From Apostichopus japonicus (Eukaryota; Echinodermata; Holothuroidea; Aspidochirotida; Stichopodidae), in contig NC_092563.1 of the NCBI RefSeq assembly GCF_037975245.1, positions 20,795,594 through 20,859,593 on the forward strand: 64,000 nucleotides of DNA, in the 5' to 3' direction. Below the pieces are notes generated by a model, which saw only the letters and a program-made list of their open reading frames with translations, ran no database searches and was not told the origin of the DNA. Position 1 is the stretch's first letter. Each line of letters begins with the position of its first letter. Positions 1,157 to 33,585 of this stretch are shown in pieces. Position numbers and translations under genes: made by a program.

Positions 1157-4100
1157 GATGCCTTCTACCAGATCATATTTGTTATCGCACTATCAGGACT
1201 TTCATGTAAGCAAAAGTCAAAATATGTTTTCATATCTAAGTTGCTTACGATGGGTTTTCATTTTTGACACCTAAAGTGAATGTTACATTTTGTATAACCA
1301 TGATGTAATTTGATTCTTTAACATGCTGAGACTTGCAAAGATTTGACTTACTACCTACATATAACAGCTCTGAAGTTGACCATTTGGTAGGCTATATTTG
1401 TCCATTGTAATATAAATAAAAATTCATGTCCCCCCCCCCCATCTAATTAATTATAATAACGTTGACGAACTTCGTTAGTTTTAGTCTAGTTAAATTTGAG
1501 TTCCAAACATATTTGTGGTTCAATTTATTTAAATCTTTCATTTTCAATATGTGGCTATCGCGTAAATTATCTTTTTAAAGAAAATTCGAAATGTCATTGA
1601 GTGAAAACAATCATCCGGAAATTATGTTTATTTGAACAAATGCTACCTATTGTTTATGTAGGTTAGGCTAAAATGTAGTCAAAATGCAGATACTGCATTA
1701 AGGGTAGCGCCATTTCTCCTGAGACTGTGAAAGAAAAATATAGAAAATGTATACGGCTCGGGATATTTGAGGCAAATTAAAGAATTCAGGAAAATCAGCT
1801 GGAGGGGCTCTAGATGTCAATCCGTGTCATGGCGAATTATTCCTTGTAAAGTGCGACATGTCTTGGAAAAGACTTATAAAAAAAAGTTATTTGTCTAAAT
1901 GGAACATCTATAGATGTTTTTAGCGTTAACAAATGGCTTATTAAGTAACAGATAATTCATTTCTCCATGATTATTATGTACTGCCGTATATTGTTAGACC
2001 TTTCAAGTTTACTGCATCCGAATCAAAAATGATTCACTCTTGATCCACTTTCGGTGGACTTAACTGGGTAGAGGTCGGCCGAGAATAAAGTTTATATCCA
2101 CATTCAGAATCCTGAAATTTCAACGCAATACATAGGCCTGTGTATGTAGCCTTTTATTTCTTTTATATTTGATGTTTTATAACAAATTAGTTGTTACTAA
2201 ACATCTATCTTACTATTTCATCTATAGCCTTGGCAAACGAAAATAAAGTCACCTTCGCAACTTGTCCTGACGACATGACTTTTGAAAACCTCGATAAGAA
2301 CGATACGCTCAAAGTTGCTTTGGATGAACCGGTAGTCGACTACAATCCTGATGGAACTGTCAATATCGAGATTGACAAACCGGTTGATGATAAATTTGAT
2401 GTTGGGTGCACCAGAGTGACGTATATCGCAACTGATGATGCCGGAAACACAGCTACCTGTAGTTTTCTCGTCTGCGTTGGGTCATTTGCATGTAAGTTGT
2501 TGGTATTTAACAAGTTCGCAAAATCACTTTCTTGATAGGTTGTAGACCGTTTATAGTAACACTATTATTATTGCAGATTGCATTTTCTATACAACTTTTA
2601 CTTTTTTGGAGGATGACCCTTTAAAAAACGAAGGATCATCAAGTATATCATTAGTGATACAATCCGTAGGCTATTAGGACAAATACTCAAATGCTCACAT
2701 AAACTCGATAGGAAATATATGACTATTAATAGCCTGAAATCTGATGTTGATGTGAGGTTCTAATCACACGTTTGGTCAAACTTATTATAACCGGTATTTA
2801 ATTATTAATACAAGGATTCACATAAACATTTAAGACTTCACTGAGGAAATGTCCCTTTAAATATCTGAGTATAATAAAAGAGATAAAGACCAAAACTATT
2901 ATGACCTCAAATAACGTTACTGTTTACATGCAATGCAGTTAAGTTTGCCAAGGACAAAATAGCGTTGAATGGTATCCAAAAACTTTCTGTTGATCATATT
3001 TGAATTTCAAAGAACATCAATATTAGACAGCATAAGGAGGTGAAGTCACCATCACCTCAGCATCCATAGCAAAGCATAGCATAGCATTTCATAGAGTTTA
3101 GTATTTTTCAAAGGTGTAAACATTGAAGCCCTAATGGTTATATGTAAACATTATCGGCGATAAGATTCCGGTTAGGATTTCATGTGTTATTTGATGATGG
3201 ATGATAATTTGACTATACCAGCAAATCTTCTAAAAATCACTTAAAACAAGGTTGCATTTGAACAAATTAATGCATTTGATCAAATTATTCAAGGGCCTTC
3301 TTTGCGATTTCTTTACCAATTAAGTTTCATGAGTTTATATGTATGTCATGATTAGATTTTTGTTTTAAACCTACGTGTTAACCTTTTCATCAGCAAACTT
3401 CAAACCAACTTCGAAATAATTTAAATAACATTTTAACCAATACTTTAATAAATTACCAAATTTAGCGGTGATGAGCACTTCTTGTAGGTATGTATGTTTT
3501 CATGACAAGCTATATCAATACTCCCATATAAAATTATTTTCCTTTTTGTATTACTTGAAAGGTGTTACATTCGATATTTGAAATAGTTCAACAACCATGA
3601 CTCAGAATATTTGGATTCCTTGCGCTGTTTACCAGTATGGCTATTGCAAATACTATACAGTGAGTGGGCCTGAAGTTTCGATCCTAGCAGGATCTTCTTC
3701 AGAGGCTGATTTTTTTTTTCGAAACGTCAGGCCCACATACTTTTTACAAATTCTCTTATACAGGCTCTTTAGTGGATAAGCAGTTTGCTAACAGCTTTTG
3801 TTTTATTTTATTTTGAAAATACTATACCATAGAGAAGTACAAAGTCAATGCGTACAGGCTTGTAACAGAACGAGACAGTCACGAAGAATTTGTGTAAAAT
3901 TTCAAACATTTTTATCATAATGAGAAAGACACTGCTTTTACAAAATAATCAGAGTAAAGCCTCCTTTTTAAGAAATGTCACACATGATAAAGTCTACAGG
4001 GTGGGAAAACCTAAACAGCTTGATCCACTCTCAAACCCCAGTCCTCTAACATTAACAGTACTGTGTGATCATGACGTGTGTTACAACTAGTGAGATACCA

Positions 4101-4748
4101 TGTCAGTGGCTTGTCGCAAAGTTATCGCGAAGATCGCCCGTTGCCTTCATTCTGTATGAGACACTGGATCTATGTTTTTTCATAAGTCGAAAATTAACAT
4201 CAAGCCCCACGTAAACGTTGATCTATCGATAAGTGAGCAACAAAAAAGGCCGGGATACAGAAATTGACTTTAGCGTGACGTTACCATTCGGTCATGAAGG
4301 GTTCCCGCTTTTTTGGCATTCGTAAACCACATGGTCTTTGTGTAGAGCATTTGCGAATATCTGAAACCGTATTTGTTATCGTATTTCCAATTCCCAACCT
4401 TTGTAATATTTATAAATATTCCTATAGGAATAATGTTCCTATTGGAACAATTATGTAGTAAACTAAATATTCAATTCATAAAATTCAATCATAAAATCTG
4501 TCAGTGATCGCATGGTGTTAGAATATGATCCATGGATATATATTGCGACACATCCGCGGCGGTTCTGGCGACCAGTTTTGTTGTGTTTTTATTGTGATTA
4601 TTATTTTATTATGATTTTGTGTTATATGTATATAAATATTTATTTCTGTCTCTTTCCAGTTACACCTGGTACTATATTGGTGATAATTGCAGTTGCAGTT
4701 GCGGTTGTCACCGTAGGTTGTGTCATCATTGTTTGCAAGTGCAAGTGA
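1157..4748 (+). CDS. Small single-pass membrane protein with one HYR domain, copy 1 (5' exon missing)
   Basis: Three exons splice cleanly: 1157-1205, 2228-2491 and 4660-4748, with introns in phase 1. The first begins in phase 0 and encodes DAFYQIIFVIALSGLS, a signal-peptide core. The second is one HYR (hyalin repeat) domain: TCPDDM at the start, GCTRVTY, then ATDDAGNTATCSFLVCV. The third encodes TPGTILVIIAVAVAVV and onward, a hydrophobic helix of about 23 residues, ending in CKCK and a stop. With a single Met from an upstream exon the protein would be 134 aa. HYR domains belong to extracellular adhesion or recognition proteins; this one would face outward from the plasma membrane. A polyadenylation-type AATAAA lies at 5332-5337. 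It is a paralogue of the gene at 28976-33585, in the same orientation. Its ligand and role are unknown. The exon structure is directly supported; the initiator exon was not found. Confidence 0.8.
3606..3663 (+). pseudogene. Cryptic signal-peptide-like exon inside HYR copy 1 intron, start codon lost
   Basis: The stretch reads FGFLALFTSMAIANTI in one frame and ends at a GTGAGT donor. The matching position in copy 2 starts with ATG (32718); here it is ATA (3607-3609). It lies in the intron between the HYR and transmembrane exons. It may be a decayed or alternative first exon, or a chance hydrophobic reading of a conserved intron segment. Confidence 0.25.
3663..3737 (-). repeat. Inverted-repeat hairpin with hammerhead-ribozyme-like core (copy 1)
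   Basis: Arms of about 17 bp (AGTGGGCCTGAAGTTTC and its near complement at 3721-3737) flank an inner segment. On the minus strand this reads CTGAAGA, a perfect 5-bp stem GATCC-tgcta-GGATC, then GAAAC. That is the order of conserved boxes in a hammerhead ribozyme core (CUGANGA, stem II, GAAA). Stem I is not convincingly formed, so catalytic activity is uncertain. The same element sits in the same intron of HYR copy 2. Confidence 0.5.
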
Positions 4749-5374
4749 TTGCCTTAATTCTCAACCTCTCAAATTTTCAACCTCTCGACGTCGACATGTG
4801 AAGCCTACTTTTTTAACCTGCTTAAGTGAGAAATAACCCATTCAATAATCAGAGTCTTACATAATATGAAAGAGGCTGGAGTAATCAGTATATCTCACAG
4901 AACAACTGAACAACAAATTGACTCTGTTTGAGACATAATGTGTCTTAAAGTAGCCTATTCCTTCAAAATGGCCATTCCACATCCAAATGAAAACACATCG
5001 AAATGACATTTGAAAATGCGCCCTTTAATAATACCACTGCTATAACAGTTTACCTGCCTCGGGCATTTCAATATGCTCTCGAGGTAGATCGGGGGAACTT
5101 TGAGCTGAGGAAGTGACTTTTCCATGCTCGTTCCCTTGTTAGGCTTGGCGAATTGATTACGTAACACAGGCTAATGTTCCTTGAAAGGTTAATAACCTTG
5201 AAAGGTGCAGAAGTTGCAAGTGGTGAAAAAGGAAAGGCAGTCTTACTTAAGGGCGGATTTTCAAATGACGACTTGGAAAATGAGATAATCGTACGCATAA
5301 AGTACTAAAGTTACTAATTGTGGAGACATTAAATAAATGTTAATTTTCATATAGATTTAAAGTAGGTATTACAC

Positions 5375-7990
5375 TGTAAAAAATCTGGGAAAGGTTACTC
5401 CAAAAATTGGGTGAAACCAGGCTGCCCCCCCCCCCCCTATTTGGGGAAGACTCACATTTCCCCTATGTGTGTAAGGTGGTAGATTACCCCGTGTGAGGAA
5501 ATATCAGCTTTCCTGTCAAAGAGGAAATGTTGCTCTATGAATAAGGGAAAGGTTCCCCTTTTAAGAGGTAAAGTTCATGATACTCCACATTACGGGGGAA
5601 ACAAAGTTTCAAGTAAGAAACCTCTTTAATTGAGTAAACCTCTTCCCCATATTATGGGGTAAAGTCTTAAATAACCCAAAGTTGAAGGAAAGCTGTGTTA
5701 TGACAAAGGTATTGATTAATATCCAGCTGTATTTTCTCTTTAAACAAATCAGATATCTTTACAGTATCATATGAGTTAAAGACAATCTAAGGTGAAAAAA
5801 TTAACTGCAATAATGTATCACTTTATTTTGTTAATGTTTTTTAAAGATCTTCTTATTTTGTACAAATCGTTTTTTGAAAATGTACAGTATCATGTTTATA
5901 CACTGTATGCTTTTGCTGTTTTTTGAAAATGATTATATAATTTCTTACTAGAAATGTCATTCACACACAAAAATTGTATAATATCACTCTTAAATGTTAT
6001 CTTTCACACTGTTGCTCAGTAAATTGTTCATACTTCTCAAGTCTGTAGATATTTGAATATATGTATATGTATTTGTATATTGAATATTATGATATTTGAT
6101 AAGTGGAAATAACCCAACAACTACATGTACTAGTGCATTGACTATTATTCAAAAATTAGAAACAGTTCCAGATATGCAACTTGCTACTTAGAACTCTGTT
6201 GAGAGCATGTCTTTTTCATAAATAAAAACTTTAAGTAGACAGTCAACTGAGAACAAAATATATTTATCAGTCATTTTAGTTCACCATATGCTATCTTTAT
6301 ACATGACTGTTAACTACAACCATATTTTCAATTATTCATGTCAGTCTAATATATTTCAACCTTCAATTCTACTAACCTTTTATTCTTCCAGCCCTTTAAT
6401 TCTCCAAACAGGAAAACACACGTGTTTTTTGTCAACACACTTGTGAATTGTGTTCATCAAAGTGATTAATATCAGAAAGTTCAAACTTTAAACTTGTTCA
6501 GATGAATACTTGGATCGAATTTTTAAAAAAACAAACGCTTAACTTTCCAGTAAGATTTGAACAAAAACTATATGAAACTATTAAAAAATGCACAACATCA
6601 ACTAAATACTTGAATAAATGAATATATTAAGTTCCTCCTTCAACAACTCCATTAATGGCAACATGTCCATCATGGAATTTCTTCCACTAACAAAGAAAGA
6701 TAGTCTTTATTTTCTCAATTTTTCTACAACTGAAATTACCTTTCTGGGTGTTTTCAAATTGTCCTTCAGTTTCAAGAAAAATTTCTGGATAAATATATAT
6801 GTTTCTGCCACTTTCTTTGGAAATTCTATGTTGCATGCATAATAAACTCCAAACAGACAGCTAATAGCTTTAGACACTGTTGGTCCATTATACTGTTAGT
6901 CTCTCCGACAATGTAGCAAGCTTGAAGATCCTGGCCAGGCTTTCCAACAAGAGCAAAGTGTGGTTCAACATTATAGTGCATGACTGAATGATGTAATCTC
7001 TGGTCACTGGCGCGTTCTGCCTGCGGATTAAAAGAGCGGTAAAAGAAACTAATGATAGTGAAAATTAAAAATAACAACTATATATATGTGGTACTTCTTC
7101 AACAAAAATTACAAAAGTACAAAAATATAACCGAGGCAAATTGAGAACATATAGTAGACATGATAGCATCGTACTGGTATCAAAAGCTCATATGCCACAA
7201 ATTTTTGCTTGAGGCTGATGATTAGAAGAAACTTAGAAGGTAAAATGGTAATGTGCACAACCTTTCCTTCAAAATGTAGCCAAAATTACCCTATTTCAGT
7301 GCACTTTTAAATTGCAGAAAGAGGCCAGCAAGATTGCATTGGCTTGCTGTTGCTGTGAAAGCTTGCACTTCAGAACCCTGCCAATAATGGCAAAATCAGA
7401 ACCGATAGCTTCAGAGGCAATGCAGACATTAAAAGGAGAAGCAAACCCAAGGAACCTTTAAATATCTTATATATGAAAGAGGGTAAAATCCGAAATACAA
7501 TGCTGCAAACTCCAAGTCGATTGACCATGAAATACTCAAATATGGAAGCTGCCATTTTGTTTTAAAACAGGCTGGAAGTGATGTGATTTACTCAGATAAC
7601 GATTTAATATTTATATTTTGTTTCTAGATCTATCGTCCTTGAGAAATAAATTCCAGGTGTGAGGGTCAAGAACATATGTTTTAACTAAAACACCTATCAA
7701 ATCTTTGTAATTCACCACTGTTAAGAATATTGTTCTTAATTTGTAAAGATACTCCAAATTTTTCACAAAAAGTACAATCTACTAGACTACCTATGTTATT
7801 AATCAAAGTGGTTGCTTCCATGTCAGATTTTTCATGACCAATTGCTTCAATATAATTTAAGTTAAGAATATTGTATGTACTTGTGGTTTTAACTATACTT
7901 GGGAATTTTACACTCTTGGGTTTGGGTCTCCTTTAAATTTTTTAAAAAGGAGTAAGGAGAAATTTTAGGGGACATACGATATTTCTATGG
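5375..7990. mobile_element. Probable degenerate DNA transposon inserted 3' of HYR copy 1
   Basis: The right flank of the duplication is interrupted from TTACACTGTAAAAAATC (about 5371) onward. The first 330 bases carry many irregular GGGGAA, TTCCCC and GGGTAAA motifs, as in transposon subterminal repeats. The interior holds a frameshifted open frame on the minus strand (6680-7030). The right edge is not clear; 7990 is a guess, and no clean terminal inverted repeat was found. Confidence 0.35.
6720..7030 (-). pseudogene. Frameshifted ORF remnant, probably transposon-derived
   Basis: On the minus strand, after a plausible acceptor (tttaatccgcag), an open frame encodes AERASDQRLHHSVMHY and continues through HFALVGKPGQDLQACYIVGE to LKLLAVC. 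The reading then shifts by one base into GVYYACNIEFPKKVAETYIF and FFLKLKDNLKTPRK before a possible GTAATT donor. The NIEFPKK...FIQKFF stretch resembles repeat-associated proteins common in marine animal genomes; this comparison is from memory. The frameshift implies a dead copy. Confidence 0.4.
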
Positions 7991-8429
7991 GACAGTTTGC
8001 ATACGCATAGAAGGGGGCAGATTTTGTTATAGTCAAGTACAGTAATAAAGAGATTTAGTCTCCAAATGCAAGGAATATTGATCATCATTTTGTCCTTATA
8101 AAGAGAGACGTCTTAAACAATCAACTCGGCCATTTCATGAGTACTAGCAATTTTCTAGAGGTATAAACCCTGAATTTAGTTTTTATTATAGAAATAATAC
8201 TGTAACCCAACCTCCGTTTGAACTTCATTGAGGTGGGGAAAAGAAGGTATCCCTTTGCATATAAAGCAGGCGACGCTTTGCAAGGTCTCATACGGGACTT
8301 TTGCACAGGAGCCTGTGGGAGAAAGTAACCTTTTTGCCTTTTCCTTGAAAACAAGCCCTTGAGCTGTCCTAAGACATCCAGAAATAAAAATGAAAAATAA
8401 AATTTCACACCAGATGGCATATTTTTACA

Positions 8430-9215
8430 CCCTCAAAAAATCAGGTTAGGCCCAAAGGATGTTTTTTCCCCAAAATTCTACATTATCAGTTCTAATGCTT
8501 GGATCTTGTAGCGGGTGAAAAAAATATTGATGCATGCCCAAAAATTTCTGGGAGATGGACGCTGATTTAAGTCGTATAGAACTATATGGAAAACCTTGTA
8601 TTCTAGTTCAACATCTAAACAGTAAAGGTTGGTAAACCTATTGGCCATAGAATTGACCAAGTCACGGCAGCATCATATTGTAACTTCCATATATGACTTT
8701 AATCTAACGATAATTTGAACATTATAACTACAGCGTAAAAAGACAACAACGTTCAATATCTAATTGATTTCGTCCTACTTATGACCGTTGAAATTTCAGG
8801 ACGTTTATAATGACAATGGAAAAACTTACCATGGTGAAATAATTCGCGTTATCTCCTGTGAAGCAAATCAGATTTCTTGACAGATCGTGGTTTGATATAT
8901 TGTGTGATGGCTTATATCAAAAAGTTATACTCAACTTAAAACGAAGAATCTATTGACTCTTGGATCCTGACATCATCACACAACGGAGGGATTACATGAG
9001 ATTGCAAAGCTGCCTTCTTTAGTTTTTAAAGAATTATGAGTGAACACTTCACCAACGGAGGATTAAGTAATCAAGATCATCCAGGGCAAGGATAACTTAC
9101 AGCAAAAAAACTCTGAACCAAGCGGAAGGACATAATCCCTGATTTGTGTGATGTGTCATGTAGAATCCCTATCAACTATCACCCCTTAGGCTAGGTTAAT
9201 TAAGGATTCCACCTC
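8430..9215 (-). pseudogene. Orphan inverted 5' fragment of the HYR locus (third copy)
   Basis: On the minus strand this matches the upstream part of copy 2: 8974-9215 and 8752-8960 correspond to about 28290-29060, and 8430-8720 to about 29700-29920 and 770-1065 of copy 1. It keeps the initiator exon: the minus strand reads TTTCACCATG followed by GTAAGT, with the ATG at 8832-8830. No signal-peptide, HYR or transmembrane exon follows before homology stops near 8430, so it cannot make the protein by itself. The DNA corresponding to 29060-29700 is absent. Confidence 0.7.
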
Positions 9216-9773
9216 ACCATCACACTACACATCTAAATCTTAGTCTTACATAAGATTTCGAAGCAAGTGTTCAAGAATAAGAATACGAGGCGTAAGGTAA
9301 TGTGAAATCGAGTAGTTTGATTCGATGCACATTAACATAAACATTCCCTTCTACTTTCAAAAAGAAAAGAAAAGGTTGACCTTAATGGTTTTATGGCTTG
9401 AATAAACTATACATACAATACTGAAATCAAACCAAAGCTATCTTTAATATGTCCATTTCACTTAGTAACCAAGTTAACTCTTAATAAACAACACTTTGCC
9501 TCTTACTTTGGATTACTTTTTACTCGAACAACTTTTTTTAAAAGCTTCTTGCGAATTAAGCTGCCTTATCGCCAATAGCAACATTTCTGACAACTGTGCT
9601 AACTGAACTTAACAATATATTACCTCAAACAACTTTCCAAACGGCACGTTTTCTTTTATAAGCTTCTTGTGAGTTAAACTGCCTTAACCGCAATAGCAAC
9701 ATTTCCGCAACTGTGCTAACTGAATTTTCACTTACAATAGCTCAATCCTTCTTTCTTGCCTGAGCCACTACAT

Positions 9774-9950
9774 ATCTCGCTTCTCGGCCTTTTGACTAAA
9801 ATCATGTGTAGTATCTGATGGTGATACACACCCAACGGTGATCACACAGTCACAGTTTCGATGCAAGGGGACTGGGGTTAGAGAGCGGATCAGTCGTTCG
9901 GTAGTGAGGTATTCGTGCCCAGGTTTTTTGTCCTGGTGACTTTTCTTAAA
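9774..9950 (+). mobile_element. SINE-like element with U2 snRNA-like head, copy A
   Basis: The first 44 bases closely match the conserved 5' end of U2 snRNA, including GCTTCTCGGCCTTTTG and TGTGTAGTATCTG. After that the sequence is not U2. It continues into a body (GATACACACC, TGATCACACAGTCACAG, AGAGCGGATCAGTCGTT, CGTGCCCAGG, GGTGACTTTTCTTAA) that recurs at 57408-57620 behind its own U2-like head. A shared head plus shared foreign body indicates a dispersed SINE rather than a single U2 pseudogene. Confidence 0.6.
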
Positions 9951-9958
9951 AACTACCT

Positions 9959-10140
9959 ATCTTGGCATTTCGGCTGAGATTCTATACAGCAACGCTTCTC
10001 GGGATTCTACCTAAGATCGTATGTACCATTAGATCCAACTTGTAGTTCAACTCTAATACTCACCTGACCGATGATCACAATCACAATCTCTATGCAACCA
10101 GGCTGGGCTTCACCCACCACCCTGCAGTGGGCATCAAACC
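9959..10140 (+). mobile_element. U2-headed SINE-like element, degenerate copy B
   Basis: This directly follows copy A. It has two decayed U2-like heads (CTTGGCATTTCGGCTGAGAT at about 9961 and CGCTTCTCGG with CTAAGATCGTATGTA at about 9990-10025). Then comes the same body: AATACTCACC, TGATCACAATCACA, CTCTATGCAA. Resemblance of the ATACTCACCTG part to U1 snRNA was considered, but the family body explains it better. Confidence 0.45.
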
Positions 10141-11250: not shown

Positions 11251-11253
11251 CGT

Positions 11254-11254
<1 letters not shown>

Positions 11255-11294
<40 letters not shown>
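11255..11294. repeat. TA microsatellite
   Basis: An uninterrupted AT dinucleotide run of about 40 bp lies upstream of the SLC16-like gene. Confidence 0.95.
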
Positions 11295-11295
<1 letters not shown>

Positions 11296-11809: not shown

Positions 11810-12118
11810 ATGAATCGCCGCATGGAAGAATGGATCAAGTGTAGGTGGGGATGGGTGGTATGTGGTGCATCGTTCTTCATTCATGTGGGGATGTATTCGC
11901 TAGCCAATACATTTAGTCTTCTTTTTGTAGACATTCAGCGAGACTTGAACGCGACCGCAGTGGAAACAGGTAAATTTCTCATTGCTATATATCTATATAT
12001 ATACATTTATTTATTTATTTATATAATTGAAATCGCAGTGAGTTGGAAAACCCAGAACAGTGAATAAAAACTTCCAGCCTCCATCGGGATTCGAACCCGG
12101 GCCTCCCGCTTTATATGC

Positions 12119-12163
<45 letters not shown>

Positions 12164-15100
12164 TTATTGATTTGTTCTTGTATCCTTTCTCGTGAGCATA
12201 CTCAGTCATATATCGATTTTGAAGTTCAAGGCAAGTATAATCAACGCAAGTAAAATAATGAATCAATAGTTTACCAGGGGGAACTTGGAAGTGAGGTAGA
12301 TGGCTGGTCTCATGATAGAAGAGAGGGTAACCAAGGGCTGCAAGGGGAGCGAAAGAAAGGCGAATATAAGCTGAGAGTTGATTTCGCTTTATGTGTTTAT
12401 AGCTTGTGATGAAAATCATTCGAAGAGATGTCAGCGATTCATTCTGAGGCTGTAGCTCCATTAGTTCAAATATACTTTGATGCATTTTACCAAAAGCAAA
12501 CGAAGAAGAAGAAGAAGAATAAAGATCTCATTTGTAATTACCGAAAAGTTATCTTAAGGCTTAAACGTTGGAGGTGCTTAAATCAAAGCGACTTTAGTCG
12601 TTATTGTTTACCGTTGGTAGTATTCATACAATTTAACGTGGTTTCTCATTTATCTTTAGTTACTTTATTTCTCTTATTGTCAGTATTTCTACCTTCTGTT
12701 TTAAATCTCTTTCATTTGCTTCCTTTCTTGGTGTATCTTACCGTCTTAACTTGATTTTTACTACAAAATTCTTTTTTATTTGTCTTTGAAACTGAGGGCC
12801 TCGGGGAAGATAAGCTCTGGCTTACCGGGTCACCCTCAATTTAATATATTTTAAATAAAATAAAATAGTCTTCCAGGAAAACAAATCTATCTCAAACAGT
12901 TGATAGTCCTGGTTTAACCCACTCACAGGGTGTCTTATTAGTTGTCACCCTCTGAGCTTCAAGGGGTCAACATGTAATCTCAAATGGTGAAAAATTGTCT
13001 CAAGGAATCAACAGGTTATCTCAAGTTGACCCAAAATTGGATCGCAAAATATTCGATTGCTTGGGTCCGGCGGACGCAAACTTTCTCTGAATAAGTGAGT
13101 TAACTTAAAACATTGTCATGAAAATCAAAAACATATCCTGCTGAATTTGGTGATGTCGTCACTAACGGTTCACTCTACTGTTGCCAGCTGCATTATTTTA
13201 AGTATTTGTCAAATTTAAAACCTTCATACTTTACCATACTACAAAATGCTATATAGAAGTGATTATTGACCTTAAGATGCAGGAAATCTCCAACATTTTC
13301 GTTAAGCAAAACAACTTCAGGCGTCGCTGTATATCATCCCTTCAATCATATTGCTCCAAATTCGACAGGTTGGATAGGGTCAGTCATATGGGGTGTTCAG
13401 ATGTTCTCATCTCCGCTGGGAACATTTCTGGAATCCTGTTTCACACACCGTCCAGCTCTTATCCTCGTCATCATCGTAGCGTCTGGTGCAATATTCGTCT
13501 CGTCATTTGCGCAATCGGTCCAACAACTCTTTGTAACGTTGGGCGCCATTTATGGTCTCGCCCTAGGGACATCTTGGTTCATCATGCTGTGCGTGATAGT
13601 TCAATACTATCCTACCAAGAATACAGTTCGTGCTATATCTTTTGCCACGTTGGGAGGAACAATTGGTGAGCAAAATTTACTGATTTTTAGGACATGCCAT
13701 CCATGTACACATTTTCCAAATGATGCAAATTATCAATATCTTTAAATGTGAAATGGTGTGAACGGCCGTTTACTATGCTTTCTCCATTGTTTCACAATAT
13801 TATTGATTGTCGTATGATTAATGTTCGATGCAAAATGTGTCTAGGAGACGAAAGTGACAGAATAGAAGAAACGTTGGCTTAACTAATGTTCATGTAATGA
13901 AACGTATCCTGAACATTAATTACGTATTCGCGTGGTATCTGTACACAATACGTGGATCAAACATTGGGAATTGGTCTTATGGTAGACGCTTCAAGGTTAG
14001 CGCAAAAAAAGATCTCACTTCCTTGAAATGTTAAAAGTGTTAAGAAACAGTTATCAAACTATCAGAACATGATATGACAAAAGAAAATGTATATGGCTTG
14101 CATCATGATGGTAACTTGTAAATGTGTCAGTGTTACAGAAAACAACCATCAGACTGACTTAAAGAAACACATAATAGTTTATTACAACCATTGTTATTCT
14201 TCTCTTTTCAAAAATAGAAAGGAAACAGTAATTGGAAGAGTTTCTAGTAAATTATTGGTTGATTGATTGATTTCATAGTACGATTTTTATTGTTGCTGTT
14301 TCTCTTCCCGACCAACTCAGCTACACTTGTCGGTAGTACACCAGTAAATATGAGCGTAGAGGCCTTTGGGTGGAGAAGAACCCTGCAATTCATCGGTGCA
14401 TTCACACTTATTCTGTCGTTACCACCAGCTGTTTTGATGTTCCCTCCAAAAGACAAAGTTTATGAATCATCACGAAGGGACTTTGAAGATAACATAGAGG
14501 CAATATCAGGAAGCACATCGAATATTCAAATACACCAACAGAAGGTTTGTACCTCAAGAGAAACTAATCTGCATCAAAATGACCGCGACATGCGGGAAGA
14601 CGATAAGTCGAAAGTGGACAGAGGAGATGTCGTGACCACAACCAAGACAATGGCTTCGCGTTTAGAGAGATGGAAGAAGGTTATTTGTGTCGATGCGTGT
14701 CTCTATAGTATCTTTACCGTAACGTGTGCTATGCTATGGGCTGTCTTCTTCATAAACATAGTAAGTTCGAAAGAAAGCTAATTTGTATTATATATATATA
14801 TATATACATCGCCATTTGTCTTACCGAATTGTGATATGCTATTTACACTTTGCCACTGTTGCCTTCTCAAAAGAGCAAAGTTAGTTTTCGAGATGAAAAA
14901 GTGAACGAATCGGACCGGAAAGATCGCTGAAACTGGCGGTTAGAACTCGCATCGTCTACTTGATAAGTTTTTTTTTTCTTATTGTTTTGTTTGAAAAGAA
15001 AAACAGCTTCACACCGCTCCCTCCACCGCCCCCCCCCCCATCTTCCCTGCACCCAGAAACACAATGCAATACAAGTCGCGATCTCATTGCAGTGATGCAA

Positions 15101-17929
15101 TAGTATCGTCGCAACAAGTACAATTGTTTTGTACAGTTTGGTAGAGGACATTTCATTTCCTGCTATCATTGTAAAAATCATCGATCATATCTCATTTAGT
15201 TCATATTTCCAGCTTATATATTCTTTAATATACTTATAACTTATTTGGTACTGAAGTTACTGGCTCTAACCGGGTAGATTCATCTTAAATTTTATTTCTA
15301 GAGAACAAGGATATGACATGAAATGCAGATACAACCACCAATGAAGCAAATATGTGTGTTTACTCAATCGACCGTGGCAGGTTCCGATGAACAAGGTATG
15401 TCTCTATAGGAACTACCGTCTGCGCAACTAGCGACATATTCGCGAATCTGCGCCAGTCACGTGACGGTGGTATTAGAAGTCGATGGTACCAATTGGCATA
15501 TCACAGAGGGAAACTTAACCGAGTTACGGTACCTATAGAAGGCGATTGATGCAGGTTTGAAAGATTCCCGTCTATTGGATAAAACAAGTGACGGGTCAAT
15601 CTAACAAACAATTGCAAGATGTGGTTAAAATGTCTTCGTTAAAATTGCTTGTTCAACGTGGAGAGATCTCTACACGTGCATGGAATGTTTGCGTTAGTAA
15701 TTCCAGCATTTCCAACCTGTTGCTTGCAAATGCCGTGCTAAAATTTTGAATCTTGAAAATGAAATTGACGAAATCTGCTATTTTGCAAAACATGAGCATC
15801 AAAAGGTTGATTTTGGCATCGTCCTTCTATGACGTATGGTTGGACACTACATACGACCACAAGCTTCCGTCAGAGAAACACCATGATAGGAAGCAACGGA
15901 GAGGCGAGAATCTGACATCTCCTGGCTGCATGGCGTAATATGGTGGATACCAAACGAGGGCCGTGAAATTCTTAGAACCTGTCTGTAAGGGAAGCCTCTC
16001 TCTCCCCCCTCTCTCTCTCCACCTCTCTCTCTCAGACTGTTTGAGGGCACGGACGATATATATAACGATGTTTTGTGGGAAACTAATTCCCTTCTATACT
16101 TTTCACTTCTGTATCTTCCAGATCAGTTACTATGAGAGTGTCGGTATAACTTCACATCAAGGTGCTATGCTTTTGACAATTACCGCCACGTTTGAAATGG
16201 TTACCAAGGTAACACTTGTTGTAATTGGAGAGAGGTTCCCGTTCAAGAAAACGTACCTTCTGTTGACTAAGGTCATCGGGATGATTGGGCTTTCATTGAC
16301 AATGGTTGTCGCGACCACCTTTCCACAGTTCGTCGTATTGAGTTGTGGTAAGTTTCAGTTACACAATTTTCATTTACTTTCAACTAATTCGTATAGCGTT
16401 ATCGTATGCGTACTAGAGAGAGTTAGACAGGGACGTAATGTTTCAAGACATTTTCCTACCGATATAAGGATATTATCGATTTCTGAATCTTTTACAAAGG
16501 ATATGTATGACACGGGAATATGTTGGCGTCTATTCCAGTGTAGGCCAGATCATATAAGCTGTGTGCGTTGAGTTCAAAGACTCAAGAGAACAAGAAAGAA
16601 AACCCCTGCCGCTACCTAAATCAATCAGGAGAAATTAACAACTCATCCCCCCCCCCACCTACCCCTCACCTTTGAAATCCTTTGCAAGCCATGCACTGTC
16701 ACTAGCATAATATTAACTCGTTAATACTATTCGTACTGTCACTGTGGTCATGCATGTCATTACTATATTATGTGTTGATGCAATGAGAAATGTTCTCGAA
16801 TGACATACACATGTGTTATAATATCGAAGCCAAAGAGTGTCTGAAGATATACCATGCATTTCCCTTCTCGTGAACAGTACTACTGAATAGGAATGTGAAA
16901 CCAAATGGGCAAGTATATGATTCTTATTTCTTGCAGTGACCGGTATTCTCCGGGCGGCCTTTAACGTTCTTTTGTATCCTTGTAGTATTGAAACCCTAGG
17001 ACAGAGTTGCAGCGATGAGGTGATAACTTTAACATCAATATCCAGAGGAATAGGGTTTCTTACAGGAACCATCCCAGCTGGTAAATAAAAGTTACTCCAA
17101 TCAGTCTGCACTTTCTCAAAGCTATTGAACTGGCTGTGCTTGTGGCTTTAAGTATTTTTTGCTTTGTAAAATAATTTAGTAATAATTGTAATTCCTAATC
17201 TTTCATTTGTTGTTCTTTATCTCTGGTTTATTGTTTATGCGAAGTGAGTAGCGGGTGTATCGTCCAAATAACCTTTGTCTTCCCAACTTCCATATAAATT
17301 CATTTAGAGCTATACGTATTGCATCGGGGATATTCTTGTTTGTGTCATTCTGAACACCAAGCGATGTAATATATCTCCATATCGGATAGCTCGCAGGTGT
17401 AATTAAAAGGTATATCCAGTCACTCACAGGCAAGAAATACAGAATAGTTGTTATCCCACAAGTGTGTTGTAATGATAATCCTATAAATGTGGGCAAAACA
17501 TTCATGGCCCAGCGTGTGGTGGGTAAAGTAAGTGATTATGTTTCCATGTGGCTGGTCGTTTCCCTTCAGCTTACCACCAGGTTGTAGCAAATTCACCATG
17601 AAACCTTTAATAATGCAATATTCGCCGATTCAACGAGCTAATCCATCGTTTCGCTCTCATTTGCAGGTGCTATCTACGATAAGTTTGGGTCATATAGGGT
17701 TTCATTCCTCATCGTAGCAACCACTTCACTTGTTTCTGCTCTGTCGTTGTCGATGGTCCTCCTGCGTCAGAAACTTGTGAGAAGACGCTCTAAAGTATCA
17801 ACAGGACCGCGTCAATGTAACGAATCGAAGAAGAATTTGGACCTACGTGTGTCTACCGAAACATCTGTGTATAGTAAACCAAAGACACAAGATGATAAGT
17901 ATATTCCAGAACGTGTGGAGATCATCTAG
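11810..17929 (+). CDS. SLC16/monocarboxylate-transporter-like membrane transporter (MFS), complete, six exons
   Basis: Exons 11810-11969, 13369-13665, 14321-14760, 16122-16347, 16937-17080 and 17667-17929 join in frame into 509 codons plus stop, all with GT/AG borders. The N-terminus has RWGWVV at residues 12-17, matching the SLC16 signature in the first helix, then a GWIGS motif opening helix 2. The helix 4-5 region reads YYPTKNTVRAISFATLGG, like the second SLC16 signature. FGWRRTLQF precedes helix 6. A hydrophilic, charged loop at about residues 195-270 separates the two six-helix halves, as is usual in this family. The C-terminal half includes RAAFNVLLYP, GFLTGTIPAG and IYDKFGSY, and the cytoplasmic tail is about 60 residues. 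The family moves monocarboxylates or related solutes across the plasma membrane; the substrate cannot be told here. A second in-frame acceptor at 13321 would add 16 residues before GWIGS, but the shorter form fits the family better. Confidence 0.92.
12022..12118 (-). mobile_element. tRNA-derived SINE, truncated head (in intron 1 of the SLC16-like gene)
   Basis: On the minus strand the T-arm of a tRNA-like head (GGGTTCGAATCCC) is followed by a body with CTGGAAG, CACTGTTCTGGG and CCAACTCACTGC, and an AATTATATAAATA tail. The head is cut at the anticodon region, where a TA microsatellite begins (12120). The same sequence occurs at 34500-34655 and 44868-44993. Confidence 0.75.
12120..12158. repeat. 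TA microsatellite abutting the SINE head
   Basis: An AT dinucleotide run begins exactly where the tRNA-like head stops. Confidence 0.95.
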
Positions 17930-22900: not shown

Positions 22901-22904
22901 TACC

Positions 22905-23430: not shown

Positions 23431-23705
23431 TATAACTGCCCTAGTCTATGATATGAGCTAAACCCTATTACCAATCTAACGCTAAATCAGAAAAAAAGTA
23501 GAGCCTTTTACAATCGTCACGCCTGATTTTCTAAAAAGAAAAAAATGCTGGCACTATATCTTTTCCTTCGAACGTGCGCATATAGTTATGGCTATGATAA
23601 AGAACGAATGAAAATGTCAGCCTATTACCAATATATTCTATACTGCTTTCTGTACTATAGACCCCTACCCGGCACATAATAGAAGTTTCACGTCTATTTA
23701 TACAC

Positions 23706-23711
<6 letters not shown>

Positions 23712-23744
<33 letters not shown>
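23712..23744. repeat. TA-rich microsatellite
   Basis: A short run of TA with TGTATA interruptions lies between unrelated flanks. Confidence 0.9.
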
Positions 23745-23749
23745 ATTGA

Positions 23750-26700: not shown

Positions 26701-27160
26701 ATCTAGTTTAAAGAAAAGTAGCTACTGCTACAGGGCTGACTTTTGTCGTAACATAAAAGTTATTGAGAGAGAGGCTTTGATGAAGTCCATTTGCCTTAGT
26801 TCAATTATAGCACGTGACCTATAATTAAGTCAACTTTTGTTCAATTCTTGTTCCGTAGTAAAAACTGTTCAAGTGAATTTGTTTCCTTGTGAAAAAAGTG
26901 CTGAACACTGTCTTGGTATTTCCTGTTATACTTCACGGATGACGTTCGGGATGTGACGATGGTAATGTGAAACATCTGTCCTAAAAAAATTGACTTCAGT
27001 ATTGAATTTCTAAAAAATTCATGGTATAAATATTTGAGGTTTTAATTTAACTATTTTGCGAATGTTCATTAACTCAAAATTCAAAAGTAAGGAGACACAA
27101 ATGAACTTTCAGTAACATTAATAATGTTGTTTTATAGTTAATGTTTTGCCTTTCCATAAT
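23750..27160. other. Intergenic region, no gene recognised
   Basis: No exon with family features was found on either strand. Short open frames here are AT-rich and look like chance. A G-rich patch lies at 25625-25650. Confidence 0.45.
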
Positions 27161-27169
27161 TTGAAGCCA

Positions 27170-27690
27170 TTGCAACTTTATCGAGGATAAGGTGGTATAC
27201 CCAATAGTATTAACAAGTGGTGATTTAACCAGGAATGAGGTAGCAAATTCTTTAATATTAACCAGGATAGTAGTCACATCAATCAGGAAATGTTTAATTT
27301 AACCAGGAAAGAGGTGGAATACGTTTGATATTAACCAGGACAGTATTGGCACCAGCCAGGAAATGTTGGTTTAATTAACCAGGAAAGAGGTGGAATACGT
27401 TTGATATTAACAAGGATAGTAGTCACATCAACCAGGAAATGTTGGTTAATTTAACCAGGAATGGAGTGAAATACCCATTGATATTAACCAGAATAGTGGT
27501 AAAATCTAACCAGGAAATTTAACCAGGATTTCTTGGCTATTTCTACCAGAATTTGGTTAAAATCTCATTCACCAGTAAACCTGGTGAAAACAACCAGGAT
27601 ATGGAGGGCGGCATACAAATGCAGCTCTTGCTAAAATTTCACCAGTTCCTGGTGAACTTTCACCAGGTTGTTTTTAGAGTGTATATGTGT
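27170..27690. repeat. Irregular AACCAGG array, probable transposon subterminal region
   Basis: About 15 copies of AACCAGGAA or a close variant recur at irregular 25-60 bp spacing, often with GATATTAACCAGGA and GGTGGAATACGTTTG. The block ends at CACCAGG, CCTGGTGAA pairs and then TTTTTAGAGTGTATA, which resembles the terminal sequence of DNA transposons. No transposase frame is present. Confidence 0.5.
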
Positions 27691-28297
27691 ATATGTATAT
27701 GTGTATGTGTGTAAGGTCAACAGTGTGTGCAGCTTACTTTCAATAAGCATGCCCAGCCTTGCAATCTAGACCTGGCTTTAAAGTTCTCAGTGTGATTATA
27801 TTAGACTATTCACATGACGACCGGGTCAATGTAATTTGTAAAGGTTTATTGCTGTATTTGAGTGTCACATGACATCTAAGGGGAAATGAGTGAAATTTCT
27901 ACATAAGTCATTCCAAGCCATTTAGGCCCTTGTCCAAAGACACTTTATCAAAATGATTATGTCAAGTTTTGGCTAGTTCAGGAATGAATTAAAAAACGGT
28001 TTACTCTTAATAAACAACAGTGTTAACACTGTGCCTCTTACTTTGGATTACTTTTTACTTACACAAAAGAGTAAAACAGAAAGTCGATCTTAATGTTGGC
28101 TATTAGAAGACTAAGTTACTAAGTCAGTTGCAATACTGCATCACTGAACACCTGTTGGCATTTGGTAAATAGGCATATTATAGAATGAAGCAAAATTATT
28201 TTCCTCCCTGCCAACCTCCTATATTTGCAAAATATCTTTCACAGGTCTGGCATATGCAGATGACACTAGTGCTGCAGCACGTGTGCTGTGAGCTTTA

Positions 28298-28568
28298 ATT
28301 AACCTAGCGTAAGGGGTGATGGCTGATAGGGATTCTACCGACACATTACACAAAGGAGGGATTACATGTCCTACCGCTTGGTTCAGAGTTTTTTGCTGTA
28401 AGTTCTCCTTGCCCTGGATGATCTCGATTACTAAGTATTCACTCATAAGTATTGAAACACTGAAACAAGAGTCAGCTTTGCAATCTCATGTAATCCCTCC
28501 GTTGTGTGATGATGTATCGGTAGAATCCCTATCAACTATTACCCCTTATAAGCTCGACTAATTTAGGA
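28298..28568. mobile_element. MITE-like inverted-repeat element upstream of HYR copy 2
   Basis: The left arm (28298-28370) and right arm (about 28484-28568) are inverted copies of each other. Shared blocks are AGGGGTGATGGCTGATAGGG versus its complement, GATAGGGATTCTACCGA, CACAAAGGAGGGATTACATG, and about 110 bp of unique DNA between. The same element is in the orphan inverted locus at 8974-9215, so it is part of the duplicated block. Confidence 0.6.
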
Positions 28569-28975
28569 TTAATACGATTCCTACGATTTTAAATGAGGGC
28601 GCACTTAAGGAATATCTAGTGGCTGTTCTTGATCATTAAAAGTTCAAAGGTTGCCGCGCGATTTGGGAATTCCAACATTATATTTCTTATCGAGAGCGTC
28701 GGAATGCAAATGTCATTAGATTCTTTAATGTTATTTATCTCCTTGTTCGTCGATCGCTAAAGGTGGACAGTATTACCATCAAATAGACGTTTCAAATGTT
28801 TCTCAATGGGGATATTTTATGCTGTTGTTCACGAAAGTCAGAATCCAACAGTCAATAGATTCTTCGTTTTAAGTTCAGTATAACTTTTTGATATAGGCCA
28901 TCACACAATATATCAAACCAAGAGCTGTCAAGAAATCTGAGTTGCTTCACAGGAGATAACGCGAATTATTTCACC

Positions 28976-31900
28976 ATGGTAAGTTTTTCCATTGCCATTC
29001 TCTTGTTAACGTACTGAAATTTCAACGGTCATAAGTAGGACGAAATCAATTAGATAATGAACGTTGTTGTCATTTTTAGCTGTATTTATAACCGATTGGA
29101 TATAGGCCTGTACATGCTTGCCTAAATCTGCGTATTATTTTATAGAGTTGGAAGCTAATGTATAACCTGAGAGTTGTCAGGGCTTCACTGGGTGTAACTT
29201 GTAAACTATAGTGCATTGTTGGCAGAGCTATATGGACAAATATAAAGTTATCATAGAATTTCCGCACTGTATTCGGTAGTCTTAAGCAAGCTTCATCATA
29301 TTCAGTAATAGAACATCCGGTGGCACACGTATATGCTATATATTAATTTCTCCGTTGAATTATACACTTAATTCGTCACTTGGTGACTAGAGTATAGAGA
29401 CAACTGACATGACTTATCCGTGATATTGTAGAAGTGTCAAAGATTATTTCCTTTATCATGCAAATGAAGTTCAAAATAAGTTTGCATCGATATGTGTAGC
29501 TGGTGATTATGTTTTTCTTTGCTATATGTTTGTTATTCTCTTTGGCTCATATAAAAGCAGGGAGCCATTATGTTCAAGTCATTTTGCTATATAGGTCTAG
29601 AGTTACATTAATCGCCTCCGTTTTATTTATGGACGGATCACGCTTTGCCTCTTACGAGATGTGTCCCTATATGTTTTCTATGTGTTGTTCTATGTGTTGA
29701 TTAAAGTCATATACGGAGGTGTATACAATAGGATGCTGCTGTGACTTGGTCAATTCTATGGCACCTATAGGTTTACCCACCCTTACTGATTAGATTTTGA
29801 ACTAGAGTACAAGGTTTTCCATATATTTCTATACGGCTTAGATCAGCGTCCATCTCCCAGAAAATGTTGGTCATGCATCAATAGTCTATTCCACCCGCTA
29901 CCTAAACACTTTATCGACGGTATAGAATTTCTCTTAAATTCTGCAGCTGAATTAAACGTTTATTTCCATGCAGGTGCAAGTAATTTCTTACGTTTTTTCT
30001 ACTTCTCCTTTTCTTATAGGATGCCTTCTACCAGATCATATTTGCTATCGCACTATCAGGAATTTCATGTAAGCATATGCCAAAATATGTTTTCATCTTT
30101 AAGTTGCTTTCGATGTTTTGTTTTTGTGACAGCTAAAGGGAAGGTTACATTTTGTATAAAAATTGTCATTTGATTCTTTAACTTGGTGAGACTTGCAAAG
30201 ATTTGACTAACTACCTACATGTAACAGCTCTGAAGGTGATAATTTGGTAGGCTATATTTGTCCATTGTAATATACATAAAAGGAAAATTCCTGCCCTCCC
30301 CCCCCCCCCCCCCCTCCAAATAATTATACTAGCGTTGACGAATTTCGTTAGTTTTAGTCTAGTTAAATTTGATTTTCAAACATGTGGTTCAATTAATTTA
30401 ATTCTTTCATTTCCATCATTTGGCTATCGCGAAACATCCTTTTAAAGGAAATTCGGAATTTCATTGAGTGAAATCAAATCATACAGAAGTGTTTATTTTG
30501 AACAACTATTGTTTAGGTAAGTTAGGCTTAAATGCTGTCAAAACTCAGTTACTGCATTAAAGGAAGCGTCATTCATCCTGGAAATAAAAAATAAATAAAA
30601 ACAAGTTTATACCGCTCTGGATATTCGAGTTAAATTTAAGAATTCAAGAATATCAGCTGGGTTGGGGAGGGCGCGGGAGGGGCTCTAGATGTCAATCCGT
30701 GTCATGCCAAATTATTCCTAGTAAAGTGCGACATTCCTTCGAAAGAATTATGAACAAGTTATTTGTCTAAATGGAACATCTATAGATGTTTCTAGCGTTA
30801 ACAAATGGCTTATTAAGTTACATGCAGATAATTCATTTCTCCATGATTATTATGTACTGCCGTATATTGTTAGACCTGTCAAGTTTACTGCATGCAAATC
30901 AAAAATGAATGATTCTTGATCCACTTTTGGTGGACGTAAAGGGGTAGAGGTCGGCCGAGAATAAAGTCTATATCCCCATTCAGAATCCTGAAATTCCAAC
31001 GCATTACATAGGCCTGTGTATGTATCCTTTTCTTTTCTTTAATGGATTTAATGTTTGATAACAAATTAGTCGTTACTAGAAATCTATCTTACACATTTCA
31101 TCTATAGCCTTGGCAATCGAAAATACACTCACCTTCACAACTTGTCCTAGCGACATGACTTTTGTAAACGCCGATAAGAACAGTTCGCTCGAAGTTGCTC
31201 TGGATGAACCGGTAGTCGAACACAATAATGATACAACCTTCAATATCGTGAAAGACAAACCGATTGATAATAAATTTGATTTTGGGTGCACCAGAGTGAC
31301 GTATACCGCAACTGATGATGCCGGAAACACATCAGCTACCTGTAGTTTTCTCGTCTGCGTTGGGTCATTTTCATGTAAGTTGTTCGTATTTAAAATGTAC
31401 GCATAATCATTGTCTTTATAGTAACACTGTGATCATTGCAGGTTGCATTTTCTATACAACTTTTACTTTTTTGCAGGATGACCCATTAAACAACGAAAGC
31501 TCATTTATTATACCATTAGTGATACAACCTGTAGGCTATTAGGACAGATACTCAAATGCTCACAAGAACTCGATAGGAAATATATGACTTTTCATAGCAT
31601 GAAATCTGATGTTGATATGAGGTTCAAATCACACGTTTTGGTCAAACTTATTATAACCGGTAATTAATTATTAATAAAAGGATTCACATGAACATTTAAG
31701 ACTGCACCCTGAGGATATGATCCTTTAAATATCTGGGTATCATGAAAGAGATTAAAAAAACAAGACTATTATGACCTCAAATAATGTGACTGTTTACATG
31801 CAATGCAGTCAAGTTTGCCAAGGACAAAATGGCGTTGAATGGTATCCAAGGGCTTCCTGTTGATCATATTTGAAGTTAAAAGGACATTAATATTAGACAG

Positions 31901-33585
31901 CATAAGGAGGTGAAGTCACCATCACCTCAGCATCCAAAGAGCATTTCATAGAGTTAAGCTTATTTCAAAGGTGTATACATTGATACCCTAATGGTTATAT
32001 GTAAACATTATTGGCGATAAGATTCCGGTTAGGCGTTCATGTCTTATGTGTTATTTGATGATGATGGATAATAATTTGACCATACCAACAAATCCTCTGA
32101 ATATCACTTAAAATAAGGTCCCATTTGATCAAATTAAGACAAGGGCCTTCTTCGCGATTTCTTTACCTAATTAAGTTTGATGAGTGCATATTTATGTCAT
32201 GTTTAGATTTTTTTTTAAACCAACACCGGCGTTAACCTATTCGTAAGCAAACTTCAAACCAACTTCGAAATAATTTAAATAACAATTTAAGCACTAATTT
32301 AATAAATTAAGAACTTTTGCGGTGTTTAGCACTTCTTTTAGGTATGTATTGCGAGAACAAACGACTGATTCACCTCTAACCCTATAAATGAGAGAATGGG
32401 AATATTCATGTTTATGATGAACAGTAGGCTATAAGTTACAACTTTTAATACTATGCTTAGCTTATAGTGGAATCCATACAACCAATAGTATATAGTCCTG
32501 TATATAGGAAAGGACCACGTCTTCTGAACATCACGTGACCTGAATATCAATGCAGGTAATCTTCTATACAAACATTCAAATTTGGTTTTCAAGGTTCATA
32601 AGTGTAATATAACAAGCTATTTTAACACTCCCACGTAATATTTTTTTATTATTACTTGAAACTGTCGAACTGTCTGTTATACTGTCAATATTGAAATAGT
32701 TATAACCATACCTCAGAATGTTTGCATTCCTTGCGCTGTTTACCAGTATGGCTATTGCAAATACTATACAGTGAGTGGGCCTGAAGTTTCGATCCTAGCA
32801 GGATCTTCTTCAGAGGCTGAGATTTTTCGAACGTCAGGCCCACTTACTTGTACACATTCTCTTACACAGGCTATGAAGTGGATAAGCAGTTTGCTAACAC
32901 TTTTTGCTTTAGTTTTACTTTGAAAATACTATACCGTAGAGAAGTACAAAGTCAATGCGTACAGGCTTGTAACAGAACGAGACAGTCACGAAGAATGTCT
33001 GTAAAATTCCAAACATTGTTTTTATAATGAGAAAGACACTGCTTTTACAAGAGAATCAAATTAAAGCCTTGTTTTAAAAAAAATGCCACACAGGATAGTC
33101 TACAGGGTGGGGAAGCCTAAACAACTTGATCCACTCTCAAACCTGCAGCTTTCTTACATTAATAGTACTGTGTGATCATGACGTGTGTTACGACTAGTGA
33201 GATACCATATCAGTGGCTTGCGGAAAATTATGATTATGATTATGATTACGTTTACGATTGCGATTACGATTGCGATTACGATTGCAATTACGAATACGAT
33301 TACAATTACGATTACGATTAAAAATATGAATATGTTTATGATTATGATGATAAGGATTAGGATTAGGAATAGGAGAAGGGATGGGAATAGGATTTGAATG
33401 ATTATGATTATGATTATGATTTAATTATGATTATTATTTTATTTTTTATTATGATTATTATTTTATATGTATATATATATTTCTGTCTCATTTCAGTTAC
33501 ACCTGCTGGTATATTGGTGATAATTGCAGTTGCAGTTGTGTTTGTCACCGTAGGTTGTGTCTACATTACTTGCAAGTGCCTGTGA
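28976..33585 (+). CDS. Small single-pass membrane protein with one HYR domain, copy 2 (complete)
   Basis: Four coding exons: 28976-28978 (the start codon alone, TTTCACCATG followed by GTAAGT), 30020-30068, 31108-31374 and 33497-33585, giving 135 aa. Order: Met plus DAFYQIIFAIALSGIS signal core, HYR domain (FTTCPSDM, then GCTRVTYTATDDAGN, CSFLVCV), helix TPAGILVIIAVAVVFVTVG, and tail CVYITCKCL. The domain has two possible N-glycosylation sites, NSS and NDT. The start is chosen because its phase 0 donor fits the next exon and gives a textbook signal peptide; the same exon 1 is preserved in the inverted fragment at 8830. A possible AATAAA lies at 34103-34108. The protein would be an outward-facing plasma-membrane protein of unknown ligand. 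Compared with copy 1, changes are almost all amino-acid altering, and it has one extra Ser codon (GNTSAT). Confidence 0.88.
29061..29624. other. Sequence present in copy 2 intron 1 but absent from the orphan copy
   Basis: The inverted fragment runs directly from the counterpart of 29060 to that of 29700. These 560 or so bases are therefore an insertion in copy 2 or a deletion in the fragment. No gene or repeat family is recognised in it. Confidence 0.4.
32718..32770 (+). other. Cryptic signal-peptide-like exon in HYR copy 2 intron
   Basis: An ATG opens MFAFLALFTSMAIANTI, a credible signal peptide, and runs to a GTGAGT donor in phase 2. It lies between the HYR and transmembrane exons. Splicing to the exon at 33497 would read that exon in a different frame, giving a Cys-rich tail (CWYIGDNCSCSCVCHRRLC). 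No evidence of use exists in the sequence, and the ATG is not conserved in copy 1. Confidence 0.25.
32774..32844 (-). repeat. Inverted-repeat hairpin with hammerhead-ribozyme-like core (copy 2)
   Basis: The inner block is identical to the one in copy 1: on the minus strand CTGAAGA, GATCC-tgcta-GGATC, GAAAC. The outer arms pair AGTGGGCCTGAAGTTTC with the CGTCAGGCCCACT side. The loop and the right arm have small indels relative to copy 1. Confidence 0.5.
33228..33440. repeat. GATTAC/GATTAT hexanucleotide microsatellite
   Basis: Degenerate GATTA(C/T) and GATTG(C) units run for about 210 bp just upstream of the transmembrane exon of HYR copy 2. Copy 1 has only a short ATTATT stretch at the equivalent place. 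Confidence 0.85.

Follow-up and report, generated by a model that had tools for sequence, protein, structure and literature searches.

The stretch analyzed here, a 64,000-nucleotide window of the Apostichopus japonicus genome (C3:20795594-20859593), contains two copies, A and B, of a small gene with the same three coding exons and standard splice sites: one exon for a hydrophobic leader, one for a HYR domain, and one for a membrane anchor with the stop codon. The predicted protein is about 135 residues long and comprises the leader, a single HYR domain, the anchor, and a tail of about 3 residues. A third copy, C, lies 38.5 kb upstream of A, with its HYR exon at C3:20759277-20759537. Comparison of the copies revealed a shortage of silent changes that is real and statistically unusual, and the genes most likely arose by recent duplication and encode adhesion or recognition proteins with a single HYR domain and a membrane anchor, under relaxed-to-diversifying selection. 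The exon coordinates of an earlier description made from the letters alone (the initial annotation) were borne out for A and B when phases, splice sites, and stop codons were checked, and the features are as follows, in window positions.

537 to 542, plus strand: ATGGAG (donor GTGTGTAT), a candidate for the first coding exon of copy A that joins exon 1 in phase 0; identical in copy C, from a donor scan.
1157 to 1205, plus strand: leader exon of copy A, DAFYQIIFVIALSGLS plus the opening base of a split Ser codon, with an open frame between acceptor ACAG and donor GTAA.
2228 to 2491, plus strand: HYR exon of copy A (Pfam HYR, PF02494, E = 3.4e-11, 43.8 bits).
4660 to 4748, plus strand: membrane-anchor exon of copy A, a hydrophobic stretch ending in CKCK and a stop; three genome matches.
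30020 to 30068, plus strand: leader exon of copy B, with open frame and splice sites.
31108 to 31374, plus strand: HYR exon of copy B, with one additional Ser codon (Pfam HYR, E = 1.5e-10).
33497 to 33585, plus strand: membrane-anchor exon of copy B, ending in CKCL and a stop, from exon reading and the genome search.
747 to 5359, plus strand: duplicated unit of copy A, from self-comparison; aligns piecewise to B at 80 to 88%.
29656 to 34130, plus strand: duplicated unit of copy B, from self-comparison.

Both HYR exons scored well above the curated Pfam cut-off of 21.7 bits, A as listed and B at 41.7 bits. Each holds two cysteines, in GCTRVTY and FLVCV, in addition to the usual pair, and these are found at those places in none of the 61 other HYR stretches to which they were aligned, some of them near-duplicates of each other. 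A profile search against NCBIfam gave no match above cut-off, and a PDB sequence search gave only four weak matches, the best with E = 0.35. The hydrophobic stretch that precedes the stop in A and B, read from the translation by eye, is most naturally taken as a membrane anchor, either a transmembrane helix or a glycosylphosphatidylinositol anchor signal.

The genome was searched in one assembly of 671.58 Mb and 35 contigs, with the best 150 of 983 first-look candidates scored in the protein search and the best 40 of 2601 in the DNA search; copy counts may be lower bounds. Among the 150 candidates scored, the close matches to the HYR exon were three, A itself, B (75% identical to A), and C (89%), and the others were at most 46% identical to this exon, over part of its length only. 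The membrane-anchor exon likewise matched A, B, and C, and the intact tandem genes, in the order C, A, B, span about 71 kb. Among the best 40 of the DNA search was a broken relative on contig C18 (L059-L061, 10761173-10762514) in which the leader exon region and intron 1 are retained but the HYR exon breaks off after ~37 bases; judged by eye, the frame of its leader exon is lost, and after the break the sequence folds back on itself. Of the 45 matches of the same DNA search (query 900 to 5360), 37 fall, across many contigs, on a dispersed repeat at window 4996 to 5275, in the 3' flanking sequence of copy A.

Exon 1 is hydrophobic and has no in-frame ATG, and an upstream exon is therefore needed. 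The leader MDAFYQIIF given in the initial annotation is not encoded in one piece, and a genome search with its back-translated DNA returned no matches. A candidate upstream exon common to A and C, ATGGAG followed by GTGTGT, has the right phase and a good donor and would give MEDAFYQIIF. In a scan for first exons against a donor consensus, this was the one phase-0 ATG candidate in A; C had three more that are absent from A. The only candidate in B, ATGCAG at 29968, was not believed, as it implies an intron of about 46 bases. The block that holds ATGGAG (window 440 to 614) is 95.5% identical between A and C and has no match in B's part of the 113.6 kb that covers the three genes, nor in 24 kb around the C18 copy, so B would appear to use a start different from that of A and C or to have none. 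Upstream of B, at window position 29548, is a TATA-like stretch, CATATAAAAGCAGGG, which the C18 copy carries with one base changed. Promoters may differ between the copies, because CATATAAAAGCAGGG was found nowhere else in the 113.6 kb that hold A and C.

Over the 133 codons aligned between A and B there were 43 base differences, and a recount of codons reproduced the earlier figures of 31 replaced and 2 silent (TTG/CTG and ACT/ACC), plus one in-frame Ser insertion in B that stands outside the codon count and is the only coding indel, at three bases. By the method of Nei and Gojobori (NG86), with 92.8 silent and 306.2 replacement sites and 2.5 and 40.5 differences, respectively, the silent rate dS was 0.027 and the replacement rate dN was 0.146, a ratio of 5.3 (one-sided Fisher p = 0.0009). 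With 43 changes placed at random, 8.7 silent codons were expected, and 2 or fewer were obtained with a probability of 0.004 (5000 draws). A stricter null, in which the real string of A-B intron differences was transplanted onto the coding sequence with its clustering kept, averaged 8.6 silent and 31.6 replaced codons over 47.5 base differences. A count of 2 silent codons or fewer then came up with a probability of 0.0008 in 20,000 draws, and of 0.00096 when only the 8320 draws having 38 to 48 differences were counted.

Sorted by position within the codon, the A-B differences number 22:18:3 (first, second, and third) and show the same shortage; 3 or fewer third-position changes of 43 have P = 5e-5 at equal rates, and 3 or fewer in 133 have P = 3e-5 at the intron rate. 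Changes unique to one copy are distributed 6:3:0 in A, 16:14:2 in B, and 1:1:3 in C, and the unusual pattern thus sits on the A and B branches. Copies B and C differ by 30 replaced and 2 silent codons. Charge is altered in 9 of the 31 A-B replacements, a count without a computed neutral expectation. In 9 of 10 codons hit twice, the third base is unchanged, and differences at neighboring bases exceed expectation somewhat in introns (55 against 39) and more strongly in exons (12 against 4.6). Multi-base mutation was considered as the cause and rejected, since the null that includes the intron clustering still gave P = 0.0008. Template-driven mutagenesis, prompted by the double-hit codons, was rejected as well: the scored candidates included A, B, and C but no other close copy of the HYR exon, and the C18 relative offers only ~37 bases of it. 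One-base indels that compensate each other could account for some of the double-hit codons, so that the independent events would be fewer.

In A, B, and C alike, all three coding exons are free of premature stops and frameshifts, and the splice sites are intact. Between A and B, 27 frame-changing indels were counted over 2445 aligned intron bases, from which about 4.4 would be expected over the coding length; none was seen (P = 0.012), and no stop arose among 43 random changes with P = 0.31, both tests covering A and B jointly. The proteins are thus under enough constraint to keep their frames open. It is highly improbable in our estimation that one or more copies, most likely B, is a decaying, unexpressed pseudogene: such decay would fit the broken relative on contig C18 and the lack of a convincing ATG exon for B, but it sits poorly with three open frames, intact splice sites, and a sole coding indel of three bases where several frame-changing ones were expected.

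Identity is uneven along the copies. Copies A and C are 5 to 7% apart in their earlier part (54/994 in intron 1, and 67/946) and nearly identical late (4/545 at the end of intron 2, 0/89 in the anchor exon, 8/530 in the 3' flank), and just after the HYR exon B and C differ at 1 of 103 positions, with A-B at 12/103 and A-C at 11/103. The three genes are therefore mosaics that no single tree fits, and gene conversion among tandem copies is the natural reading of this segment sharing.

A one-ratio codon model on the three-taxon tree of A, B, and C, with F3x4 frequencies and exchange between copies ignored, gave dN/dS = 4.44 (twice the log likelihood difference against a ratio of 1, 11.5; p = 0.0007). 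The ratio stayed above 1 after the third paralogue was added, so the outcome that the initial annotation had named as refuting, a ratio near or below 1 with more paralogues, did not occur. It was 3.05 for the leader and HYR exons together (p = 0.019) and 2.66 for the HYR exon alone (p = 0.048). Measured on the silent clock, these values (dN/dS about 4 to 5) would describe an undescribed, lineage-specific family of minimal single-HYR receptors under strong diversifying selection, varied by point change and by swaps of HYR and anchor segments among the three tandem copies, in which codon positions 1 and 2 change while position 3 is held. We put this forward as a tentative proposal.

The introns provide a second clock. 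They are alignable between A and B, as the initial annotation had said of introns and flanks, but they are also considerably diverged: 323 of 2632 aligned intron bases and 82 of 590 near-exon flank bases differ, a range of 12 to 14% and about the level of replacement sites. Another alignment of the introns gave 0.137 and 0.166, with a badly aligned stretch included in intron 2. Several results weigh against a reading of the copies as intact genes diversified by selection. With branch lengths fixed from the introns, the replacement rate was 1.26 times the neutral rate, not significantly above it (p = 0.15), and the silent rate was 0.285 of the neutral rate (p = 0.002), a deficit that selection on amino acids does not predict. 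Whole-exon divergence between A and B (43/399) is not above that of the near-exon flanks (p = 0.17). Replaced sites are not concentrated at the positions that vary among the 61 HYR stretches (p = 0.42), and in the HYR-variable half the proportion of replacement sites changed (pN) was 0.149 and did not exceed that of the introns (p = 0.22). The protein's cysteines are all unchanged between copies, and with so few this could be chance. The A-C pair taken alone is ordinary, with 12 replaced and 2 silent codons and differences distributed 7:5:4 over codon positions. Lastly, neither the donor scan nor the block comparison yielded a convincing upstream ATG exon for B. Structure prediction with AlphaFold on the A and B HYR exons, in which the first residue was read as M instead of L, was too poor for mapping the changes to a surface (mean predicted local distance difference test score, 44).

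In venom gene families, exons under accelerated evolution diverge more than their own introns. This usual mark of accelerated evolution is missing here, because the exons do not exceed the introns. The dN/dS above 1 stems mainly from the shortage of silent changes and not from a surplus of replacements, and positive selection leaves that shortage unexplained, because diversifying selection adds replacements and cannot remove silent changes. The inference of selection thus depends on the clock: it is strong with the silent clock and absent or mild with the intron clock. Diversifying selection, which the initial annotation had read from the codon counts, accordingly keeps the support of a ratio above 1 and open frames but not that of replacement rate, exon divergence, or site distribution, and selection for diversity is one reading, plausible but not proven.

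Other HYR exons of the same genome served as controls, a limited collection made up of two small sets plus one of repeats. In the C12 pair all 6 changes are silent, with 0 replacements (pN/pS, the ratio of the replacement to the silent proportion, 0), with 24/399 in the usable flank. L042 and L044 differ by 3.5 silent and 3.5 replacement changes (pS 0.058, pN 0.019, ratio ~0.33; flank 15/453), and L042 and L046 by 3.5 and 2.5 (ratio 0.24; flank 18/453). L044 and L046, with 0 silent changes (~0.5 expected), 1 replacement, and flanks of 5/598 and 11/276, are uninformative. Twelve repeats on contig C13, compared in 66 pairs, gave a mean pS of 0.093 and pN of 0.029 (ratio 0.31); of 78 codons, 21 had silent changes only and 14 had replacements. 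Badly aligned flanks were left out (5' of the C12 pair, 196/545; 3' of the L042 pairs, 206/364 and 168/382), and those of the C13 repeats, which are short, aligned too poorly (0.41 and 0.20) for a flank comparison. In the control pairs with both silent changes and a usable flank, namely the C12 pair, L042/L044, and L042/L046, silent divergence exceeds that of the flank. The control sets with silent changes show purifying selection; fast replacement does not look like a general trait of the HYR exons of this genome, nor does slow silent change. HYR exons are abundant in it: contigs C2, C3, and C4 hold a large expansion, with 1534 first-look candidates of which 150 were scored, all over the Pfam cut-off, and many loci lie in near-identical regular arrays, such as C3:25997039-26013401 with steps of ~1466 bases.

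Silent change might also be held back at the level of RNA, if splicing signals, codon choice, or RNA structure placed the transcript under selection that fixes third positions while amino acids drift. The third-position deficits between A and B and among the changes unique to B fit this idea, as does a silent rate of 0.29 of the intron rate (p = 0.002). It is nevertheless improbable in view of the 1:1:3 distribution of the changes specific to C and the silent changes present in control HYR exons. An antisense open frame in B (31076 to 31432) gives no reason for the hold, and none of at least 100 residues is listed in A; antisense overlap was rejected as the cause, as the third positions of the B antisense frame fall on sense third positions.

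Relaxed constraint combined with chance offers another account, in which the protein became nearly free after duplication and the low silent count is a fluctuation in ~93 silent sites, noticed by a reader in search of oddities. The replacement rate indistinguishable from that of introns agrees with it, as do the transplant null that predicts almost exactly the replaced codons seen, the lack of concentration at HYR-variable positions, and the normal A-C pair. Against it, the silent shortfall has to be accepted at a P of about 0.0008 to 0.004, or of 3e-5 when third positions are set against the intron rate; the open frames imply some constraint; and silent divergence is above that of the flank in the three control pairs named above. 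We consider this account rather unlikely.

The leading interpretation is the one given at the outset, of recently duplicated recognition or adhesion proteins under relaxed-to-diversifying selection. In its fuller form, a young family of three intact tandem single-HYR membrane-anchored genes has drifted in amino acid sequence at or slightly above the intron rate, with conversion, and displays HYR domains at the surface by which the copies bind different partners; we regard the chances of this fuller form as evenly balanced. The sequences themselves show that the copies retained reading frame, splice sites, and cysteines after duplication and that their amino acids changed at a pace equal to that of the neutral introns or slightly above it, and gene conversion is the natural reading of the segments swapped among copies. 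The HYR domain would act at the cell surface as a binding module, and residues in contact with a partner would be free, or favored, to change, as in adhesion or in gamete or immune recognition, so that different copies may bind different partners.

The surrounding window holds other features. A gene for a major facilitator superfamily transporter lies between A and B, at about 13260 to 16600 (MFS_1, E = 1.2e-8 for one of the two frames that were tested). Two sequences resembling tRNA-Tyr(ATA), on the minus strand at 34572 to 34645 and 44910 to 44992, are probably tRNA-derived short interspersed nuclear elements, because both sit inside repeats that resemble each other. One further fragment is related to copy B.
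8446 to 9524, minus strand: inverted fragment of the B-type upstream region, matching window 28025 to 29901 piecewise at 84 to 97%, with none of the three exons inside.

If the signal reflects real selection, these genes are very small candidates for gamete or immune recognition in a commercial sea cucumber, and HYR is a domain type that also carries selection in a sea-urchin egg-receptor-like protein. They further illustrate a general trap: a high dN/dS between paralogues can arise from missing silent changes, and comparison with the genes' own introns exposes it. We found no description of this layout (leader, one HYR, anchor, short tail) in the accessible parts of the open-licence literature on HYR, hyalin, and echinoderms, and no open-licence paper on a HYR domain in a sea cucumber. 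The main text of the Holothuria glaberrima genome preprint does not mention HYR or hyalin, nor do the available portions of a 2026 immune review mention HYR. A Holothuria scabra gonad study, in its accessible part, reports higher hyalin in the ovary, hyalin being a different protein.

Three known systems invite comparison. The hyalin-type multi-HYR genes of the same genome also carry each HYR on its own exon, with many in tandem; they differ in being repeat arrays, under purifying selection in those tested sets that had silent changes, and are at most 46% identical to the present HYR exon. The SpTransformer (Sp185/333) immune genes of sea urchins, as outlined in the available part of their description, are likewise small, tightly clustered, diversified copies with mosaic sequence sharing, but they encode disordered, glycine- and histidine-rich proteins from two exons and number ~50, against three members here (PMC5491942). 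Closest in domain type is EBR1, the egg receptor for bindin, and its relative EBR1_5, a putative sea-urchin egg receptor of 1243 residues with a transmembrane domain, a SEA domain, and seven HYR domains, in which, according to the accessible part of the report, positive selection is confined to three HYR (PMC5521101). The likeness lies in a HYR domain on an echinoderm surface protein and, for EBR1_5, in the transmembrane domain; the present genes have one HYR and ~135 residues and are not known to act in the egg. The multi-HYR architecture of EBR1-type receptors was not found in the three coding exons read, as a single HYR exon is followed by the anchor exon with its stop, and the EBR1_5 precedent would therefore support a protein that works in a similar way, not membership in that family.

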